This document shows, piece by piece, positions 4,963-14,878 of a DNA stretch of 64,000 nucleotides. The DNA comes from Prosthecobacter debontii (GTDB lineage Bacteria; Verrucomicrobiota; Verrucomicrobiia; Verrucomicrobiales; Akkermansiaceae): assembly GCA_945870855.1 (NCBI GenBank), contig CAMBTP010000007.1, forward strand, positions 1-64,000, written 5' to 3'. Below the pieces are notes generated by a model. That model made no database searches. It was not told the DNA's origin and was given only the letters and a program-made list of their open reading frames with translations. The position numbers were made by a program, and so were the translations under genes. The stretch's first letter is position 1. Each line of letters opens with the position of its first letter.

Positions 4963-5664
4963 TCACTCCTCCCCGGACATCTCGCGCTCTAGTGTGCTTT
5001 TGTGGCGGATGTCTTTCGCGTGCTCGAGGTAAACGGCGTCCTCGCCGATATTTGAGGAGAGATCGCCTACGCGCTCGAGGGAGCGGACGATGAAAATGAG
5101 GTGGAGGTATTCTTGGCAACGCCCCTGGGCTTCCTCCATGCGGGAGGCAAAATGGGCGGTGGTCTGCTTGTGCATCCGGTCGAGCTCCTTGTCGCGCGTG
5201 TGCAGGGAGGCTCCGAGCGCGCTGTTGCCGTCGCTGTAGGAGGAAATCGCGTCGCGCAGGAGATGGTCGGCGAGCGTGTAGAGCGGCTCGATGAGATTCA
5301 CCTCGCTGAGCTCCGGAGTGGCAGAGATTTTCTTGGCGCGCTTGGCGATGTTCACCGCGTGGTCGGAGATGCGCTCCAAGTTCATGGAGATTTTCATCGA
5401 GGAAACAACGAGGCGCAGATCCGTGGCCATGGGGTGGTATTTCACGAGGATATCCATGCCGTGTTGGTCGATGCTGCGCTCATAATCATCCACATCGTCG
5501 TCGTCGGCGATCACGGAGTTGGCGAGTTCGCTGTTGCGCTCCATCAGTGCTTGGACTGCTCGCTCGAGGTTGTGGCGTGCCTTGGCGGCCATTGCCAGAA
5601 CCTCGCTCTTGAATGCGGCGATGGCGTTGTCAAAGTCCCTGAGAATGTGTGGTGAGCTGTTCAT
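4963..5664 (-). CDS. phoU: Phosphate transport system regulator PhoU
   Basis: PhoU couples the PstSCAB transporter to the PhoR sensor kinase and damps phosphate uptake when phosphate is plentiful. The 233-aa protein shows the two tandem helical PhoU repeats (about 15-110 and 120-215), including the DDDVDDYE metal-binding-type cluster and the corresponding SLERVGDLSSNIGEDAVY near the C-terminus. It is the last gene of the pst block, 12 bases downstream of a pstB, which is its classical position. No phoR or phoB is in the window, so the partner kinase must lie elsewhere. Confidence 0.95.
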   Translation of the reverse strand: MNSSPHILRDFDNAIAAFKSEVLAMAAKARHNLERAVQALMERNSELANSVIADDDDVDDYERSIDQHGMDILVKYHPMATDLRLVVSSMKISMNLERISDHAVNIAKRAKKISATPELSEVNLIEPLYTLADHLLRDAISSYSDGNSALGASLHTRDKELDRMHKQTTAHFASRMEEAQGRCQEYLHLIFIVRSLERVGDLSSNIGEDAVYLEHAKDIRHKSTLEREMSGEE

Positions 5665-5676
5665 ATCTTTCTCGGT

Positions 5677-6438
5677 TTATCCGAATCTTCCGGTGATGTA
5701 TTCTTCCGTTTTCTTCACAGTTGGATTGGAAAATATTCGCGCAGTGTCACCGAATTCAATCAGTTCGCCCATGTAGAAAAACGCGGTCTTGTCAGAAACC
5801 CGCGCTGCCTGCTGCATGCTGTGAGTGACGATGACGAAAGTATAGTCGCTTTTGAGCTGAAAAATGAGATCTTCTACTTTCGCTGTGGCGATGGGATCGA
5901 GGGCGCTGCACGGCTCGTCCATAAGAACGATCTGGGGCTTCACAGCGAGCGTGCGAGCAATGCAGAGCCGTTGCTGTTGGCCGCCGGAGAGGCCGAGTGC
6001 TGATTCATCGAGGCGATCCTTGGCCTCATCCCACAACGCGGCAGCTTCAAGTGCTTCTTGCACGGACTGATCGATGACCGCCTTATTTTTCTCACCGCGG
6101 AGGCGGATTCCATAGGCGACGTTTTCGTAAATACTGCGCGGAAACGGGTTAGATTTTTGGAACACCATGCCGACGTCGCGGCGGAGTTTGACGACATCGA
6201 CCGAGCGGTCGTGGATATCGATACCGTTGATATGGATGGAGCCGCGGGTGATTTTGGCGATGGCGATCTCATCATTCATCCGGTTAATGCAGCGGAGCAG
6301 GGTGGACTTGCCGCAGCCGGAGGGGCCGATGAACGCCGTCACTCCGTGGGCTGGGATTTCCAGATTGATATTCTTCAACGCCGGAGACGATCCGTAACGG
6401 AAATCGAGCTCTTGGATGACTACGGAGTGGTCTTGCAT
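5677..6438 (-). CDS. pstB: Phosphate ABC transporter ATP-binding protein PstB (second copy)
   Basis: This ATPase powers phosphate import through PstA/PstC. It has 253 residues with Walker [10 protein letters not shown] near residue 38, the Q-loop FQKSNPFP, the signature LSGGQQQR and Walker [14 protein letters not shown]. It is the second of two adjacent pstB genes, separated from the first by 18 bases and 12 bases upstream of phoU. The two copies are clearly homologous but substantially diverged, which argues against a recent tandem duplication. Both keep all catalytic motifs, so both may be functional. Confidence 0.95.
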
Positions 6439-6456: not shown

Positions 6457-7215
6457 TCAACCGAAAGTGCCGGTGACGTAGGCTTCCGTTTGTGGGTCTT
6501 GTGGTCTTTCGAAAACGTCCATCGTCGGGCCGTATTCGATGAGTTTTCCGAGATACATGAATGCGGTCATGTCGGAACAACGGGTTGCTTGGGACATGTT
6601 GTGGGTGACGATGACAATGGTGTATTGTTTTTTGAGCTCGCTGATGAGTTCCTCGATCTTGAGTGTGGCGAGGGGATCGAGCGCGGCGCAAGGCTCATCC
6701 ATGAGGAGGATTTCTGGCTGGTTGGCGATGGCGCGGGCGATGCAGAGGCGTTGTTGTTGACCGCCGGACAGGCCGAAGGCGCTGGCGTGCAGGCGGTCTT
6801 TGACTTCTTCCCAGAGGGCGGAGCTTTTCAGGGCATTCTCGACGATTTCATCCAACTCAGCGCGTTTGGTCAAACCCGCAAGACGTGAGCTGAACGCCAC
6901 GTTCTCATAGATGGACTTGGGAAAGGGATTGTATTTTTGGAAAACCATCCCGATCCGGCGGCGGAGCTCCTGGAGGTCGATGTCCTTGCGATTGATATCG
7001 ATCGAATGGACTTCAACAGAGCCGCCGGTCACTTCGGCTCCGGGGATGCGGTCGTTGATGCGGTTGATGCAGCGGATCAGCGTGGATTTTCCGCAGCCAG
7101 AGGGGCCGATGAAGGCGGTCACCTGGCGGGCGGTGATGTCCATGGTGACATCATGGAGAACCTGTTTGCCGGAGTAGGCAAAGTTGAGGTTCTTGATTTG
7201 TATCGCGGTTTTCAT
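6457..7215 (-). CDS. pstB: Phosphate ABC transporter ATP-binding protein PstB (first copy)
   Basis: This is the first PstB ATPase after pstA, with Walker [11 protein letters not shown]-loop [10 protein letters not shown], signature LSGGQQQR and Walker [14 protein letters not shown]. The ORF track starts at a GTG at 7224 that overlaps pstA, but the ATG at 7215 ([10 protein letters not shown]) leaves a 2-base gap to the pstA stop and gives the usual 252 residues. The close spacing suggests translational coupling to pstA. Having two pstB genes in one operon could allow mixed ATPase dimers or condition-specific use; that is inference. Confidence 0.95.
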
Positions 7216-7217
7216 GG

Positions 7218-8345
7218 TTACCACTTGAGTTTGGAGCGGAGTTTACTGCGTAGGATGACGGAGCCGAGCGAAAGGATGGCGACGAGCACCAGGAAAACAA
7301 ATACCGAGCCGTATTGGGCGCGCTGAGTGTATTCGGAATTCGGGATGCGGGCAGCGAGGGTGTAGATGTGATATGGCAGCGCCTGGACTTGGGAGGAGAG
7401 AACATCGAGCGGGCCATCAACCCCTTCCCATGGAAGATCGTCTTTCGCCGCAACGGCGGCGGTGAACATGATCGGTGCGGTCTCACCGGCGACGCGGGTG
7501 ATGGCGAGCAAGGAAGATGTGAGGATGCCTGGCAGGGAAAACGGCAGGACGCATTTACGGATCGTCTGCCAGCGGGTGGCACCCATGGCGAGCGAGGCAT
7601 CGCGGAAACCCTGAGGCACAGCACGCAGAGATTCTTCCGAGGCGGTAATGATCACAGGCAGGATCATGCAGGCGAGAGTGGCGCAACCAGCCATCAGCGA
7701 CGAGCTCCAGCCTTGGAAACTGATCACATAATCGCTGATCATCAGCGGGATGGTTAGAATCGAGCGATCCGATGGATCCTGAGTGATCACCGGCACGATC
7801 AGCACAAACACCGAGAATCCGAACAACCCGAAAACGATGGAGGGAATGCCTGCGAGGTTGAGAATCGCCAAACGCACCGCATGGATGAAAGGGCTTTGCT
7901 TGGCGTATTCCGATAGATAAATCGCAGCGCTCACTCCAAAGAACAACGCGAGCATCATGGAGCCGATGGTTAGTAACGCCGTCCCCGCAATGGGGCCGAT
8001 GATACCGCCGCCCGAGTAAGAATAAGTCTGCTCGTTGAAGATGGCTTCCGCTCCATTCTTTACCACGTATGCGCTGTATTGCGAGGCCGGTAGCTGGTAG
8101 CGATTTCCTTTTTCGTCATCGAAGACGTGGAGCGTTTCATTTTTCGCAGTTAGAAACTCGAGATCCACGAAGGGAGCCTCTGCCTTGAAAAGGACGGGAG
8201 CGCCATCGACAACGATTTTTCCAAACAGCAATGCGGCGATGAGGACGATGGAATAGGTCACGCCGGAGAGCAGCGTGCGCACGATACGATCCTTGAAGTG
8301 GCCCTTGGGGAGCCCCTTGCGGATGAGAGTTTCGGGATCGAACAT
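7218..8345 (-). CDS. pstA: Phosphate ABC transporter permease PstA
   Basis: PstA forms half of the inner-membrane phosphate channel. The 375-aa protein has one N-terminal membrane helix at about 27-47, a periplasmic loop of about 70 residues, and then five further helices. The binding-protein-dependent transport signature is visible as [20 protein letters not shown] with [12 protein letters not shown] next to it. At 375 residues it is longer than the 280-300 typical of the family because of the periplasmic loop after helix 1. It lies 11 bases downstream of pstC. Confidence 0.95.
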
Positions 8346-8356
8346 GGGATGAAGAG

Positions 8357-10297
8357 TCAGTGTTTCATTTTGCTCACGAAGCGGTGGGCGGTGGCGTTGA
8401 TGGCAAGCACGACGACGAACAAAAGGATGCCCACGACAAACAGCGCCCGGTAGTGGACGCTACCCAATGGAACCTCTCCAAGCTCTTGGGCGATGATGCC
8501 GGTGAGGGTGTGGGTGGGTTGGAAAAAGGCGCCGAGCCCTGCCGTAAAATCGGGGATTTTTATGCGGTTTCCGGCAACGAGCAGCACCACCATAGTCTCG
8601 CCGATGACGCGACCGAATCCCAACAGGATCGCGGCGAGGATTCCCGAGAAAGCGGCGGGAATGATGACGCGGAAGGTTGTTTGCACCCGCGAGGCACCAA
8701 GGGCTTCGGAGGCCTCGGCGTAGGCGGAGGGCACATTATTTAGCGCGTCCTCCGCGAGTGAGAAAATGGTGGGGATGCTCATCAGGGCAAGCAGGCAGCC
8801 AGCGGTGAAAATATTAAGACGCTCCTCAATGGGGAATCCCGGAATCCATTGCAGCGAGTCCCACTGCGACACATCCCGCAAGATTGTCCCGAAAACGAGG
8901 ATGCCGATGAAGCCTAGGACGACAGAGGGAATCGCCTGGATGAATTCGATCACGGGCTTTATCAGCTCTTGCTCGCGGCTGGATGCAAATTGATTGACAT
9001 AAATGGCCGCGCCAATGCCGGTGGGTATGGCAATGATCAGCGCAACGATGGCTATCATCAAGGAGCCAACAGCGAGGGGTAAGATGCCGTAAAAATCCTG
9101 CCACTCCCCGCCCGTGACCCAGTTCTTACCGGTGAGAAAGGATGAAATCGCTGCGCTCAATGGCACAGGAATTTGATGATTCCATGAATTGATGGCGGCA
9201 GGTGTTTTTTCAAGATCGGCGAGAAAAACCGGCCAGGCTCTGCGCCCTACATCGAGAAGACGAATGGCTTCGGGCTGGGTCAGAGAGGTTGGGAGTTCTT
9301 TGACTATCCCGGAGGTCGATTCCTTTAGTTTGGTGTTCACCTCGACACAGGCGGACTTGCGCTCCATGAGGAGTTTCATCGGGCCCTCGATATCCGGTTT
9401 ATCGGCGAGGGAGGCCAAGGCATCCGCTTTAAGGCGCTCGCGCTCCACAGGATCCTCGGCGTTTTCTGCCGCAGCGAGAAGAGTTTTGCGGTCTTTCTGG
9501 AGGATGTCCGCAGATTGGATTTTTTCTTTGGTAACGGTGACGGCTTCGGTCATTTCCGAGACCAACGAGCTCAAATCATAACCCGCGGACTCGAAGGTAT
9601 CGATGGTGGCGCGCATGGCCCGCAGCGGCTCGGAGTGCTTTTGTTGAGCGGCAGAGTATTCATCGGTGAGCGTAACGACGAGAGGGGGATCCTCGGTGGA
9701 GTCCACGGCACGGAGGCGGATGGATTCGATCAAATCTTGCCGTTCCTTTGCGGAGAGGTGCGGCGTATCGGGCAGCGCTTCAAGTGCCTTATCCTTCTGT
9801 TTCTGGAAATTGGCGCGCAGGGACGTAAGGATCTCGGAATCCGCAGTCGAGCCTTCCTGGGTATTGTTTAGGACAAGATCGCGAGTGGGGCCGATCTGGT
9901 CGGTATAGGCATTGAACAGGGCGCTGGCCTCCTGATAGCGCTGGAGCTCCTTGGCGCTCTTGCCGTTGATCTCCGCGAAATATGCACGGTTCAAAACGCT
10001 GGTTAGCTGCTCATGGGCGGTCAGATTCTTCCGCGAGATATCAACGAATTCCAAACCCGCGATGCGATAGACCGACAACTCGCGTTGATAGCCCGGAAAA
10101 AATCCGAGGCCTTCTTTGAGAAGGAAAACGATAATTAGGACGAGAATAACAATCGTCAGGCCGGCATTCGAAGCAAAGAAAAACTTGATCGCCTTCTCAG
10201 ACGAAAAGCCCCGTTTTTGAAAACGGTGGGGAGCTTCAGGATTGGGGGGGGCAGCAGCTTGCATGCGGTCGATGAGAGATTCGTAATCAGCTTTCAA
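8357..10297 (-). CDS. pstC: Phosphate ABC transporter permease PstC with large periplasmic insertion
   Basis: PstC pairs with PstA to form the phosphate channel. The C-terminal 270 residues are typical: helices from GILPLAVGSLMIAIVALIIA onward and the permease signature EASEALGASRVQTTFRVIIP. The protein is 646 residues, twice the classical length. After a first helix at about 37-60, roughly 330 residues of charged, helix-forming sequence with coiled-coil character precede the transport domain. Long PstC proteins are known in several phyla, so this is likely a periplasmic insertion and not a fusion artefact. It may contact PstS or the cell wall, which is inference. Confidence 0.93.
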   Translation of the reverse strand: MKADYESLIDRMQAAAPPNPEAPHRFQKRGFSSEKAIKFFFASNAGLTIVILVLIIVFLLKEGLGFFPGYQRELSVYRIAGLEFVDISRKNLTAHEQLTSVLNRAYFAEINGKSAKELQRYQEASALFNAYTDQIGPTRDLVLNNTQEGSTADSEILTSLRANFQKQKDKALEALPDTPHLSAKERQDLIESIRLRAVDSTEDPPLVVTLTDEYSAAQQKHSEPLRAMRATIDTFESAGYDLSSLVSEMTEAVTVTKEKIQSADILQKDRKTLLAAAENAEDPVERERLKADALASLADKPDIEGPMKLLMERKSACVEVNTKLKESTSGIVKELPTSLTQPEAIRLLDVGRRAWPVFLADLEKTPAAINSWNHQIPVPLSAAISSFLTGKNWVTGGEWQDFYGILPLAVGSLMIAIVALIIAIPTGIGAAIYVNQFASSREQELIKPVIEFIQAIPSVVLGFIGILVFGTILRDVSQWDSLQWIPGFPIEERLNIFTAGCLLALMSIPTIFSLAEDALNNVPSAYAEASEALGASRVQTTFRVIIPAAFSGILAAILLGFGRVIGETMVVLLVAGNRIKIPDFTAGLGAFFQPTHTLTGIIAQELGEVPLGSVHYRALFVVGILLFVVVLAINATAHRFVSKMKH

Positions 10298-10375: not shown

Positions 10376-11185
10376 TTAGAGGTCAGCGACCGGGATGAAG
10401 CCGACCTTGCGGACGATATCCTGACCAGCGGAAGACTCGACGTATTTCATGAAGGCATCTGCTTCGGCGCTCGGTTTGTCAGGAGCGTAGAGGTAGCAAA
10501 GACGGGCGTAGGTGTATTTCTTGGCGTTCGCGGCAATCGGCTCGACACCATCGATGACAAGTGTCTTGGTGCCGGTAGTCTTGGAATAGGCGAGACCGAC
10601 GTAGCCGATGCCGTTCTTATTCTTCGCGACTTCCTGGGCGATTTGCTCATTGCCCGCCATTTTCAGCGAGGAGGATGGATAATCGCGGCCTCCCATGGCG
10701 AGTTTTTGCCAATCCTTGTAAGTGCCTGAGGACGTATTCCGCGTATAAACGGAGATCTTGCCGGGTGCGCCGCCAATTTCAGACCAATCCTTGATTTGAC
10801 CGGTGAAGATCTTGGCAACCTCGGCCTTGGACAGCTTCGCAAGCGGCGAGTTCTTATTTACGATCACGGTAAGCATATCGTAGCAAATCCCGTGTTCCTT
10901 GATGAAAACTCCCTTGGTTTTGCAGAAAGTGCGCTCGTCGTCCTTGACCTTGCGGGAGGACATGCCGATCTGCGCTGTGCCGTTGGCGAGTGCCGGGAAG
11001 GCGGTGGTGGATCCCTCTGCGGCGATCTCGAATTTCACGCCTTTATTACCGGCGGCCTTGAAGCCTTCGGCGAGCTGGGGCACGAGCTTGGCACCGAGAG
11101 TGTCGCTGCCTTTGATGCTCAGGGTTTGCGCGCTGGCCACGGACAAAGTCGCGGCGGCGGTGAATAGTGTGATAAACGTTTTCAT
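10376..11185 (-). CDS. pstS: Periplasmic phosphate-binding protein PstS
   Basis: PstS captures phosphate in the periplasm and delivers it to PstCA. The 269-aa precursor starts with a signal peptide (MKTFITLFTAAATLSVASA, cleavage before QTLSIKG). The phosphate-binding segments SIKGSDTLG, EGSTTAFPAL, IGMSSRKVKDDE and NTSSGTYKDW are readable. It is shorter than E. coli PstS (about 346) but within the range of the compact PstS group. It sits between the porin and pstC, 36 bases after the porin stop, consistent with one transcript for outer-membrane, periplasmic and inner-membrane phosphate uptake. Confidence 0.95.
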   Translation of the reverse strand: MKTFITLFTAAATLSVASAQTLSIKGSDTLGAKLVPQLAEGFKAAGNKGVKFEIAAEGSTTAFPALANGTAQIGMSSRKVKDDERTFCKTKGVFIKEHGICYDMLTVIVNKNSPLAKLSKAEVAKIFTGQIKDWSEIGGAPGKISVYTRNTSSGTYKDWQKLAMGGRDYPSSSLKMAGNEQIAQEVAKNKNGIGYVGLAYSKTTGTKTLVIDGVEPIAANAKKYTYARLCYLYAPDKPSAEADAFMKYVESSAGQDIVRKVGFIPVADL

Positions 11186-11221: not shown

Positions 11222-12547
11222 TTAGAAGGAGAATCGTAGGCCGGTCATGGCTGTGTAGCCATCATAGTCGCCACCGCCCATGTGGGAGTATTCGATGCCG
11301 TTCATGAGTTTGAGTTTGTGGCCATAAATGTAGTAGTTGAGCCCCATGTAAGCCGAGGCATAAGTGTTGCCTTTCTCGTCATTATTCGCGCCACTGGGCA
11401 ACTTAGACAAGCGCTCATAGCGACTAGGAACCGTAATGCCATTGCCAGCATCCGAGTTAGCTAACTGCAAGCGCCCCACCAACTGCAAACCATTTGCGAT
11501 GTAATAGGATGGAATGACGCTCAGCGCGATCACGTCGGATTGGCTAATGTTCTTTTGTATCCCGCTTTGCTCGGCAGTGCCATCAAACCCGAATCCATAG
11601 AGAAGTTCGGTAGTCAGACCGAAGCGCCCACTGGTTATGTCATTGGTAAGTGCTATCGAATCAGTGAAACTCGGCGATGTCCCGGGCGTGAAGTCCGCGT
11701 CTTTGAGTTTTACATATCCCGGATCAGAATTGTGCATGTAGTGCAGGGAAGCGACCGCCGTGTCGAGGCCGACTTGGGATGAATAGTCATATCCGATTTT
11801 TCCCAAAATCACCAAACCTTCATTGAAACTGGAAAACTCACGAACCCGATCGCCGCCGTAGATGCCGAGTTCGTAGAGCCAGTATTCCTGAATCCCTTTT
11901 CCAGAGACCCAAGCACCGGTCAATTCGCCCGGGAACAGCGTGTTGGAGATCAGGCTGCGCTCTATGGTCAGAATTTCTTTGGAAGAGATTTCCTGCTCAC
12001 GGGAGAACTTCACCTTAGTCTTGCCGACGGAGAGATTGAAGGTATCCACAGGGGCATAGGTTAGATAGAGATCGTAGATATCCTTGTAGGGCGAGAAATC
12101 ACCGCTGCTGTCATGCGCATCTACATCCACGTCGATCTGACCTTCGAGTTTCCAAGTTTGGAACCATTTTGACTTGAAGCCGAAGCGAGCGCGGCGGGAT
12201 TCAATGTCATCTCCCCATACGGTCTCGTCGTTGCCGGCAGCCTTGTAATCGGAGGTGTTGAATGTGTCGCCATCGTCACCGAAGATCGACTGGACTTGCA
12301 GGCGGCCTTGTAGGGAGAATTCCTGGAGGACTTGGTTGTCATCGTTTTTATAGAGCGTGAATCCGGACCATGCTCGATCCCACGCGGTCTCACCGGGAAA
12401 CTTGCCCAGCAGTAGGCCCGTAGCATAGCTGCTTAGGGCGCTTGATTCATCGATATATGGTGTGGTTTCGGTGCCAGCGTGGACTGGGATGGAGCCTAGT
12501 AGGCTTGTGGCGACTATGATGTGTTTAATTGATTTCATGGGGTGCAT
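11222..12547 (-). CDS. Phosphate-selective porin (OprO/OprP type)
   Basis: This 441-aa outer-membrane beta-barrel protein has a signal peptide ending SIPVHAG, alternating hydrophobic/polar beta strands throughout, and a terminal phenylalanine (MTGLRFSF) as needed for barrel assembly. Repertoire and position directly upstream of pstS support a phosphate- or anion-selective porin of the OprP/OprO group; the channel specificity is inferred from context. A good ribosome site (GAAAGG four to five bases before the ATG at 12547) supports the upstream start over the ATG at 12538. A strong inverted repeat lies just ahead of this ribosome site. Confidence 0.85.
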   Translation of the reverse strand: MHPMKSIKHIIVATSLLGSIPVHAGTETTPYIDESSALSSYATGLLLGKFPGETAWDRAWSGFTLYKNDDNQVLQEFSLQGRLQVQSIFGDDGDTFNTSDYKAAGNDETVWGDDIESRRARFGFKSKWFQTWKLEGQIDVDVDAHDSSGDFSPYKDIYDLYLTYAPVDTFNLSVGKTKVKFSREQEISSKEILTIERSLISNTLFPGELTGAWVSGKGIQEYWLYELGIYGGDRVREFSSFNEGLVILGKIGYDYSSQVGLDTAVASLHYMHNSDPGYVKLKDADFTPGTSPSFTDSIALTNDITSGRFGLTTELLYGFGFDGTAEQSGIQKNISQSDVIALSVIPSYYIANGLQLVGRLQLANSDAGNGITVPSRYERLSKLPSGANNDEKGNTYASAYMGLNYYIYGHKLKLMNGIEYSHMGGGDYDGYTAMTGLRFSF

Positions 12548-12561
12548 TTGACCTTTCGGTC

Positions 12562-12592
12562 GTGTGACGAAATTTATTTGGTTTCGTCACAC
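12562..12592. promoter_or_regulatory. Inverted repeat upstream of the porin gene
   Basis: The sequence GTGTGACGAAA and its exact complement TTTCGTCACAC are separated by nine bases, 15-45 bases ahead of the porin start. The core GTGACGAA recurs in three further sites around the phosphate genes, so this looks like an operator or regulator site of the Pho response. It could instead act as a hairpin in the 5' leader. Confidence 0.5.
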
Positions 12593-12637: not shown

Positions 12638-12657
12638 TTGTGACAAATTCGTCACAA
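12638..12657. promoter_or_regulatory. TTGTGAC-N6-GTCACAA palindrome, candidate Pho box
   Basis: A perfect 7-base palindrome with a six-base spacer lies about 100 bases upstream of the porin, a normal distance for an activator site. It can also be read as an imperfect 11-base direct repeat (AATTGTGACAA, ATTCGTCACAA), the geometry PhoB-type regulators use. Binding is inferred only. Confidence 0.45.
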
Positions 12658-12787: not shown

Positions 12788-14788
12788 CTACGCCAGTAGG
12801 ACTCCCTCATCTACAGAGGTCTTCCTGTCGGTGAAAACGGGTTCCACCTCGCGATCGGCGGCATTCGCGCGCTCGATGCTTTTGACGTGGCACTGCGCCA
12901 TGAACTCCTCGAAATTGATCAGCTCCATGCGCCCGTCGTGGTGCTCGACGATGGCGGTGAGGCTCTCGACCCAGTCGCCGGAGTTGAGGTAATGGATGTT
13001 GCCGACGCGCTTGTCCTCTGGCGTGTGAATGTGGCCGCAGATAATGCCGTCGCAGCCCTTGTGGACGGCGAGTTCCTGGAGCAGGGACTCGTATTTATCG
13101 ATGAAACTCACGGCGGATTTAACCTTGGCCTTTACGCGCTTGCTTAGGGAAAAATATTCCTTTCCCTGCCAAGCCCGCCAGCGGTTATACCAGCGGTTGA
13201 TGTAGAGGAGGGTGTCGTACCCGACCGAGCCGAGGGCGGCCAGCCACTTGTGGTTCGTGGAAATGCTGTCGAAGCCGTCGCCGTGGACGACGAGGTAGCG
13301 TTTCCCACCCACTGCGGCGTGGATGTATTCTTTGGCGAAGCGGATTTTCCCGAAGGCGAGTGGGAGAAAACGTTCGAGGATTTCGTCGTGATTACCGCGT
13401 AGATAAATGATCTCTGTTTTCCCTTTCTCAGACATCTTGAGAATTTTCCGGATCACGCGGCTGTGGCTTGGCAACCATTTCGAGCCACGCCGCAGCGCCC
13501 AGCCATCTACGATGTCACCGTTGAGGACGAGCTTTTCGCAGCGGACTTGTTTGAGGAAATCGACAACTTCATCCGCCTTGCTATCCGCCGTGCCGAGATG
13601 GATGTCGGAGAGGAAAACGGTGCGGTAAGAAACCTTCTCACGTTTCCCGATTCGCGGCGTTTGAGAGTAGGGTTTGCGAGGGCTTTCCTTAGTGTTGATG
13701 ATCGATTTCAAACGCTCCTCGAACTCGGTGACGACGGCAGCCCAGCCTTGGGACTCTGCCAACTCTCGGGCGGAGATTCGCATCACGTGCCCCATGCGAA
13801 TGGCAAGCGCGGCGTGGGCGCGATCAAGGAAAGCGGCGGCATCTCCTTTGGGTGCTTTCAGGCCGTTGACTCCATGTTCCACGAAACGCGCGGCGGCAGC
13901 GTAATCATAACTGACAGTTACCAAACCGCTGGCCATGCCTTCGAGCACAACGTTTCCAAAGGTCTCCGTGAGACTGGGGAAAAGCAGGATATCCGCCGAG
14001 GCGTAATGCCGCGCCAAGGCCTCCCCCGTCTGGACACCTGCGAAGTGAACCCACGGATGCTTCGCAGCGAGTTTTTCGCGGATCGGCCCGTCTCCGACCA
14101 CCACACAGCGCAGATCCGGCACGGCGGCGCGCATTTGGGAAAAAGCGGTCATCGCGAGCTGCAGATTTTTCTCGGCGGCAACACGCCCCACCACCATCGC
14201 GACGGGGGCCGCCGATCTCGCGCCCCACTCGCCGCGGAGGGTCTCGCAGCGTTTCTTGGGATCGAAGAACAAGGTATCCACACCACGCCCAAGCAGATGC
14301 ACATTTTTAAAACCCTCGGTCTTGAGGCGCTCGACCAGCTCCGGCGAAGGGGCGAGCGTGCAGTCCGCGCGCCCGTGGAAGCGTTTCAGGTAAGCCATCG
14401 CCACCGATTGCAAACCGCGCAGGTTGTAGCGTTCCATGTATTCGTGGAAATTCGTGTGAAAGCCCGTCGCCACTGGGATGCCGAGCGCCTTCGCAGCCTT
14501 CACTGCGGATTTTCCCAGCGGGCTTTCCGTGGCGACATAGATGACATCCGGGCGCTGTTTTTGCCAAAGCTCGCGCAGTTTGAACGGGCCAGGTAGCCCA
14601 ACGCGCACCTCCTTGTATCCCGGCAGCGGCACCGAAGCGGCGATCGTTTCTCCGCGCTTGCCCTCGCCGGTTCTGATCAAGTGGACATGATGTCCGCGGC
14701 TCCGCAGTCCGTCGCTAAGGCGACCCAAGGTCATGGCCACCCCGTTTATATCCGGGGCGAAGGTGTCCGTAACAATGTCTACTTTCAT
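12788..14788 (-). CDS. Glycosyltransferase (GT4)-metallophosphoesterase fusion, Agt-PlcP-like
   Basis: One continuous 666-aa reading frame joins two enzymes. Residues 1 to about 368 are a GT-B family 4 glycosyltransferase (N-terminal TDTFAPDINGVAMTLG, nucleotide-sugar motif VGRVAAEKN, EX7E motif ETFGNVVLE). After a basic linker, residues 390-650 are a calcineurin-like phosphoesterase with all five metal motifs: DIHLG, GDIVDGW, GNHDE, VVHGD and GHIH. The second half resembles PlcP, the phosphate-starvation phospholipase C, including GDWVES near the end; LpxH-like UDP-diacylglucosamine hydrolases are relatives and remain an alternative. In other bacteria PlcP frees diacylglycerol from phospholipids and the adjacent Agt glycosylates it. 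The fusion is transcribed towards the porin-pst genes, which supports a lipid-remodelling role; that role is inferred. Confidence 0.85.
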   Translation of the reverse strand: MKVDIVTDTFAPDINGVAMTLGRLSDGLRSRGHHVHLIRTGEGKRGETIAASVPLPGYKEVRVGLPGPFKLRELWQKQRPDVIYVATESPLGKSAVKAAKALGIPVATGFHTNFHEYMERYNLRGLQSVAMAYLKRFHGRADCTLAPSPELVERLKTEGFKNVHLLGRGVDTLFFDPKKRCETLRGEWGARSAAPVAMVVGRVAAEKNLQLAMTAFSQMRAAVPDLRCVVVGDGPIREKLAAKHPWVHFAGVQTGEALARHYASADILLFPSLTETFGNVVLEGMASGLVTVSYDYAAAARFVEHGVNGLKAPKGDAAAFLDRAHAALAIRMGHVMRISARELAESQGWAAVVTEFEERLKSIINTKESPRKPYSQTPRIGKREKVSYRTVFLSDIHLGTADSKADEVVDFLKQVRCEKLVLNGDIVDGWALRRGSKWLPSHSRVIRKILKMSEKGKTEIIYLRGNHDEILERFLPLAFGKIRFAKEYIHAAVGGKRYLVVHGDGFDSISTNHKWLAALGSVGYDTLLYINRWYNRWRAWQGKEYFSLSKRVKAKVKSAVSFIDKYESLLQELAVHKGCDGIICGHIHTPEDKRVGNIHYLNSGDWVESLTAIVEHHDGRMELINFEEFMAQCHVKSIERANAADREVEPVFTDRKTSVDEGVLLA

Positions 14789-14862: not shown

Positions 14863-14878
14863 GTGACGATTTCGACAC
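14863..14878. promoter_or_regulatory. GTGACGATTTCGACAC site upstream of the fusion gene
   Basis: This quasi-palindrome lies about 75-90 bases upstream of the fusion start, in the 230-base region shared with the divergent nrdR. A nearby GCTGTCATGCAC resembles one half of a classical PhoB repeat. It shares its first eleven bases exactly with the minus-strand site at 12747-12762. It is a candidate Pho regulator site. Confidence 0.45.

Follow-up and report, generated by a model that had tools for sequence, protein, structure and literature searches.

Analysis of the window (the whole stretch of DNA under study, 64,000 nucleotides) revealed a single reverse-strand gene in which a GT4 glycosyltransferase and a PlcP-type metallophosphoesterase are joined in one 666-residue protein. 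In other bacteria, separate plcP and agt genes serve to replace phospholipids by glycolipids when phosphate is scarce. The fused gene quite probably encodes a bifunctional enzyme that combines PlcP and Agt in one protein and remodels lipids as part of the Pho regulon, an activity predicted from sequence. Adjacent genes of an operon often fuse in evolution, and the surprise is limited accordingly; interest is raised by the fixation of the fusion across a family, by its operator, and by its presence in Akkermansia. The conserved operator ahead of the fused gene is new in this analysis.

Phosphate-free lipid remodelling is a major way in which bacteria adapt to waters poor in phosphate. Most of its characterisation comes from Proteobacteria, as do the PlcP-Agt precedents (PMC4796936, PMC8528852, PMC9239053, PMC8231724). 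One verrucomicrobial PlcP has been noted (PMC4796936), and verrucomicrobial methanotrophs are reported to lack PlcP (PMC9239053). A literature search, with most subscription journals outside its coverage, returned no description of a PlcP-glycosyltransferase fusion, and neither an enzyme assay nor lipidome or expression data for any such fusion. With the pathway in one gene, a single step would suffice to test it or to move it; whether substrate is channelled between phospholipase C and glycosyltransferase becomes a testable question, and the fusion serves as a genomic marker for the trait in lake, marine and gut Akkermansiaceae.

Organization of the fused gene and its neighbours

The fused gene, its parts and the adjacent phosphate uptake genes are arranged as follows.

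12788–14788, (−): fused glycosyltransferase-PlcP gene, 666 amino acids (from the single frame, Pfam and relatives)
13691–14788, (−): GT4 glycosyltransferase half, residues 1–366, Agt-like, GT-B fold, EX7E motif at E275/E283
13637–13690, (−): linker, residues 367–384 (18 residues)
12893–13636, (−): PlcP-type metallophosphoesterase half, residues 385–632, with DxH, GD, GNHD, HGD and GHxH motifs and the GDWVES block
11222–12547, (−): phosphate-selective porin O/P (PF07396)
10376–11185, (−): pstS, phosphate-binding protein
8357–10297, (−): pstC, permease with a long N-terminal part
7218–8345, (−): pstA, permease
6457–7224, (−): pstB, first copy, ABC ATPase
5677–6438, (−): pstB, second copy, ABC ATPase
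4963–5664, (−): phoU

The frame runs for 666 codons without interruption, just as the preliminary description had stated; it opens with ATG, and comparable fused frames are widespread in relatives. Pfam places Glyco_transf_4 at residues 14–172 (6e-30), Glyco_trans_1_4 at 195–327 (2e-28) and Metallophos at 389–590 (6e-14). None of codons 361–400 is ATG, GTG or TTG, which leaves the C-terminal half without a separate start in that region. The full-length structure model is of moderate quality (pLDDT 78, pTM 0.54), with a poor cap region in the PlcP half and low confidence at linker residues 368–382.

Spurious long frames do occur in high G+C genomes, and two were met here, in genomes G118 and G096 of other families, where the N-terminal parts of the apparent fusions proved to be arginine-rich noise without glycosyltransferase similarity. 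That the frame in the window likewise arose by chance, or by an assembly error merging two genes, has a negligible probability and is already refuted: 85 loci, closed isolate genomes among them, have both halves in a single frame, the linker stays within 13–25 residues across Akkermansiaceae fusions, and the fused state recurs in 28 further genomes of the genus, in 28 of the 29 PlcP-bearing genomes of the family and in 80 named loci.

The preliminary description had the fused gene transcribed directly ahead of the porin and the pst-phoU genes. The gene order stands; a single transcript is less certain, as the fused gene and the porin are separated by 240 nt that carry their own perfect copy of the promoter motif described below. 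The fused gene and the porin-pst genes are probably two co-regulated transcripts and not necessarily one. Among the 80 named family loci, pst genes lie within 8 kb of the fused gene in only 11, representing several lineages by inspection. The pstC product is itself unusual in length (646 residues, with approximately 400 ahead of the permease domain; relatives reach approximately 750), and the tandem pair of pstB-type ATPases in one pst operon is found likewise in two relatives (G005, G027).

Assignment of the two halves

The metal motifs of the C-terminal half (D395-x-H397, G424-D425, G465-N466-H467-D468, H502-G-D and G585-H586-x-H588) are invariant across 32 family members and identical in the PlcP references. 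The EX7E glutamates of the N-terminal half, E275 and E283, are invariant in the family as well. These residues and the Pfam domains bear out the earlier reading of a GT4 enzyme with EX7E joined to a phosphoesterase with five intact metal motifs. The C-terminal half shares 46% identity with P. aeruginosa PlcP and 44% with S. meliloti PlcP, as compared with 23% over 120 residues with E. coli LpxH. The PlcP references were taken from annotated records; the P. aeruginosa one adjoins agt1 and a cyclase gene, in what we take from gene context to be the PA3219 setting of PAO1, and the S. meliloti one adjoins a LuxR gene, presumably the SMc00171 setting, as judged by context.

The main competing assignment for this half is an LpxH-type UDP-2,3-diacylglucosamine hydrolase, with the glycosyltransferase half adding a lipid A or lipopolysaccharide sugar. 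PlcP and LpxH share fold and metal ligands, the closest solved folds to the PlcP half are LpxH, the LpxH equivalog is its best NCBIfam model, and LpxH is the database label of PlcP relatives. The match to this model is, however, only 42.7 bits against a cut-off of 134, and the true P. aeruginosa PlcP is similarly far below it at 55.1 bits. Both the C-terminal half and PlcP carry GNHD and the PlcP-specific GDWVES block, where LpxH has GNRD. The preliminary description had proposed a tree with characterised PlcP and LpxH and held that clustering with LpxH, or absence of another lpxH from the genome, would count against its own assignment. Neither objection holds. The C-terminal half falls inside the PlcP group, in its own clade away from LpxH (whose branches are long), in agreement with the identities and GNHD, and the genome encodes LpxI (E 4e-46), which covers the lipid A step and so makes lipid A independent of the phosphoesterase half. 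With a phosphate-type promoter motif also present, an LpxH function is very unlikely, and the C-terminal half is assigned to PlcP. Among the six Metallophos matches of the genome none is otherwise PlcP-like, and no further PlcP was found there. PlcP proteins at five other loci (L107, L109, L110, L112 and L114) are labelled UDP-2,3-diacylglucosamine diphosphatase (LpxH) in public records.

The N-terminal half gives Foldseek matches to BshA/PimA and is 31% identical over 310 residues to P. aeruginosa Agt1 (E 2e-43, in a small comparison set). Its top two NCBIfam models, glucosaminyl-phosphatidylglycerol synthase and alpha-monoglucosyl-diacylglycerol synthase, are both lipid glycosyltransferases, and Agt1 places the same two first. 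Since these models are shared, diacylglycerol is the likely acceptor, with sugar and acceptor both uncertain at 31% identity.

Both halves might instead work on phospholipid without acting in series, with the glycosyltransferase modifying phosphatidylglycerol or another lipid and PlcP feeding diacylglycerol into other pathways. The top model for the N-terminal half, N-acetylglucosaminyl-phosphatidylglycerol synthase (130.8 bits), and the modest 31% similarity to Agt1 speak for such an arrangement. We consider it quite unlikely, given that Agt1, which ranks the same models first, makes glycosyl-diacylglycerol (PMC8528852), that a phosphate-containing product makes little sense in a Pho regulon, and that the glycosyltransferase gene adjoined plcP before the fusion. 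This genetic linkage takes the form of fusion in Akkermansiaceae and of neighbouring separate genes in sister families. Free-standing glycosyltransferases 50–53% identical to the N-terminal half were also observed in fusion-bearing genomes (G030:C239, G009:C11:599982 and G035:C81), as a second Agt-like enzyme.

Distribution and origin of the fusion

Of 36 further genomes in the genus, 28 have a complete fused frame, at 63–88% identity. Within a sample of 388 Verrucomicrobiota genomes, the fusion accounts for all but one of the 29 PlcP-bearing Akkermansiaceae and for none of the 88 PlcP-bearing genomes outside that family, the spurious G118 and G096 being discounted. A scan of named organisms yielded the 80 loci, every one related to the whole query, with carriers that include Luteolibacter pohnpeiensis, Haloferula luteola, Haloferula rosea, Roseibacillus persicicus, Persicirhabdus sediminis, Rubritalea marina and Akkermansia muciniphila CSUN-56. 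Only some Akkermansia carry the fusion; approximately 10 genomes of the genus (up to 2.7 Mb, one of them closed) have neither half, and the gene is therefore dispensable there. The trait suggested earlier for Verrucomicrobiota is thus one of Akkermansiaceae, with a single case elsewhere in the order, and does not extend to the phylum at large. One genome has, besides an intact fused gene elsewhere, a second, degenerate copy interrupted by stop codons (G011:C80:6472-7721).

Sister families within the order (f2–f6) keep glycosyltransferase and plcP as separate genes, often neighbours on the same strand with the glycosyltransferase first; some pairs share a 4-nt overlap, and four genomes have phoU after plcP. 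The two unfused partners share 46–53% and 53–61% identity with the fused halves. These operons resemble the fusion in order and strand and, in f4, in carrying the same operator, and differ in consisting of two genes, often overlapping by a few nucleotides. On this evidence the fusion is best explained by an event at the base of Akkermansiaceae that joined the neighbouring agt and plcP genes of an operon. A second fusion, with a linker of 77 residues, occurs in a single genome from a different family of the order (G040, locus L063/L214). In the glycosyltransferase tree, a starred branch places its N-terminal half among unfused genes, which counts against a single origin; the PlcP tree does not reject a single origin of both fusions (p-AU 0.27). 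The fusion probably arose once more, independently, in that family.

The likeness to the known PlcP-Agt pathway (S. meliloti PlcP, PA3219; Agt PA3218, A. tumefaciens Agt, SAR11 GTcp) lies in a homologous esterase and GT4 enzyme, the metal motifs, gene adjacency in many bacteria and phosphate control. The fusion differs in being one polypeptide with the glycosyltransferase first, whereas P. aeruginosa has plcP before agt1, in the 31% identity of its glycosyltransferase, and in a promoter motif that departs from the E. coli-type Pho box in the first half-site.

Among the plasmid and phage records inspected, only unfused PlcP was found. The SAR11 phage Pelagibacter phage Mosig EXVC030M (L111, 2992–3729) encodes a PlcP 45% identical to that half of the window's protein, next to a phosphate-transporter gene, and Synechococcus phage S-SRM01 encodes a more distant one. 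A Pannonibacter plasmid (L237) carries a metallophosphoesterase 31% identical to the PlcP half, with a gene labelled ceramide glucosyltransferase immediately after it; this is perhaps a parallel esterase-glycosyltransferase pair with another glycosyltransferase family.

The promoter motif and a proposed mechanism

A search with the E. coli-type Pho-box consensus gave weak enrichment, and from those matches the motif GTGAC-N6-GTCAC (consensus TGTGACGAAWYYGTCAC) was derived, which lies mostly 77–95 nt ahead of the start codon of the fused gene. With up to one mismatch it is present in 40 of 62 fused-gene upstream regions as compared with 24 of 536 control upstream regions of the same loci (Fisher p 9e-30, nominal since the loci are related); the remaining 22 have no match at one mismatch. 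The window contains five strand-matches against 0.06 expected by shuffling, which correspond to three places.

14863–14878, (−): operator copy ahead of the fused gene, GTGTCGAAATCGTCAC, differing from GTGAC-N6-GTCAC by one core mismatch and beginning 90 nt upstream of the start codon
12744–12764, (−): degenerate third operator copy, TTGTGACGATTTCTTCACGAT, directly past the fused gene
12640–12656, (−): perfect operator copy, TGTGACGAATTTGTCAC, approximately 93 nt before the porin start

The last of these is the sole exact site in the genome. Across 60 family genomes, 12 exact sites were found, with none for a reversed-pattern control, and 10 of the 12 lie before or within the porin, pstS/pstC, a Na/Pi cotransporter (PF02690) or the fused gene. 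Unfused glycosyltransferase-PlcP pairs of family f4 have the exact motif 70–78 nt upstream, and Akkermansia retains an invariant GTGACGGTTTCGTTTCC. A scan for terminator and promoter consensus sequences gave nothing beyond chance.

Pho boxes have half-sites spaced 11 nt apart, arranged in E. coli as a direct repeat. The motif found here has this spacing when taken as two TGTsAC half-sites, and is at the same time a palindrome. Its palindromic character raises the alternative that the enzyme is correctly identified and the motif is the site of some other regulator over phosphate and lipid genes, which we regard as improbable in view of the Pho-box spacing of the half-sites and of exact sites that lie almost exclusively at phosphate transport genes or the fused gene. 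From these comparisons we conclude that GTGAC-N6-GTCAC is the Pho operator of Akkermansiaceae, which lets the Pho regulon of the family be mapped from sequence. PhoB is its presumed binder; a PhoB-like regulator is encoded in the genome, scoring 229.9 bits, which is under the curated cut-off. Membership in the Pho response, previously argued from the neighbouring genes, gains backing from the shared, conserved promoter motif, and it is this motif that points to phosphate-starvation control of the fused gene.

The preferred reading of a one-protein PlcP-Agt enzyme suggests the following sequence of events. At low phosphate, a PhoB-type regulator would act at the GTGAC-N6-GTCAC operators ahead of the fused gene and the porin-pst genes. 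The PlcP half, as a metal-dependent phospholipase C-type esterase, would convert phosphatidylglycerol or phosphatidylethanolamine into diacylglycerol and a phosphorylated head group, and the GT4 half, tethered by the short flexible linker, would combine diacylglycerol with a UDP-sugar to yield a phosphate-free glycolipid.

In Akkermansia, the enzyme would act on phosphatidylethanolamine. In A. muciniphila, a15:0-i15:0 phosphatidylethanolamine is reported to make up approximately half of the membrane lipid and to be immune-active (PMC9328018), and ornithine lipids were dominant at all phosphate levels tested (PMC9981464). A bolder extension, which we hold to be doubtful, is that the fusion acts as a membrane head-group exchanger, handing diacylglycerol directly from esterase to glycosyltransferase, and that in Akkermansia carriers phosphate would, through this enzyme, set the balance of phosphatidylethanolamine, including the immune-active form, against glycosyl-diacylglycerol in the gut.

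The 240-nt gap between the fused gene and the porin shows unusually strong folding (z −3.3). Right ahead of the porin start, at 12562–12592, it includes a perfect 11-bp inverted repeat, GTGTGACGAAA-N9-TTTCGTCACAC, made from the operator half-site.
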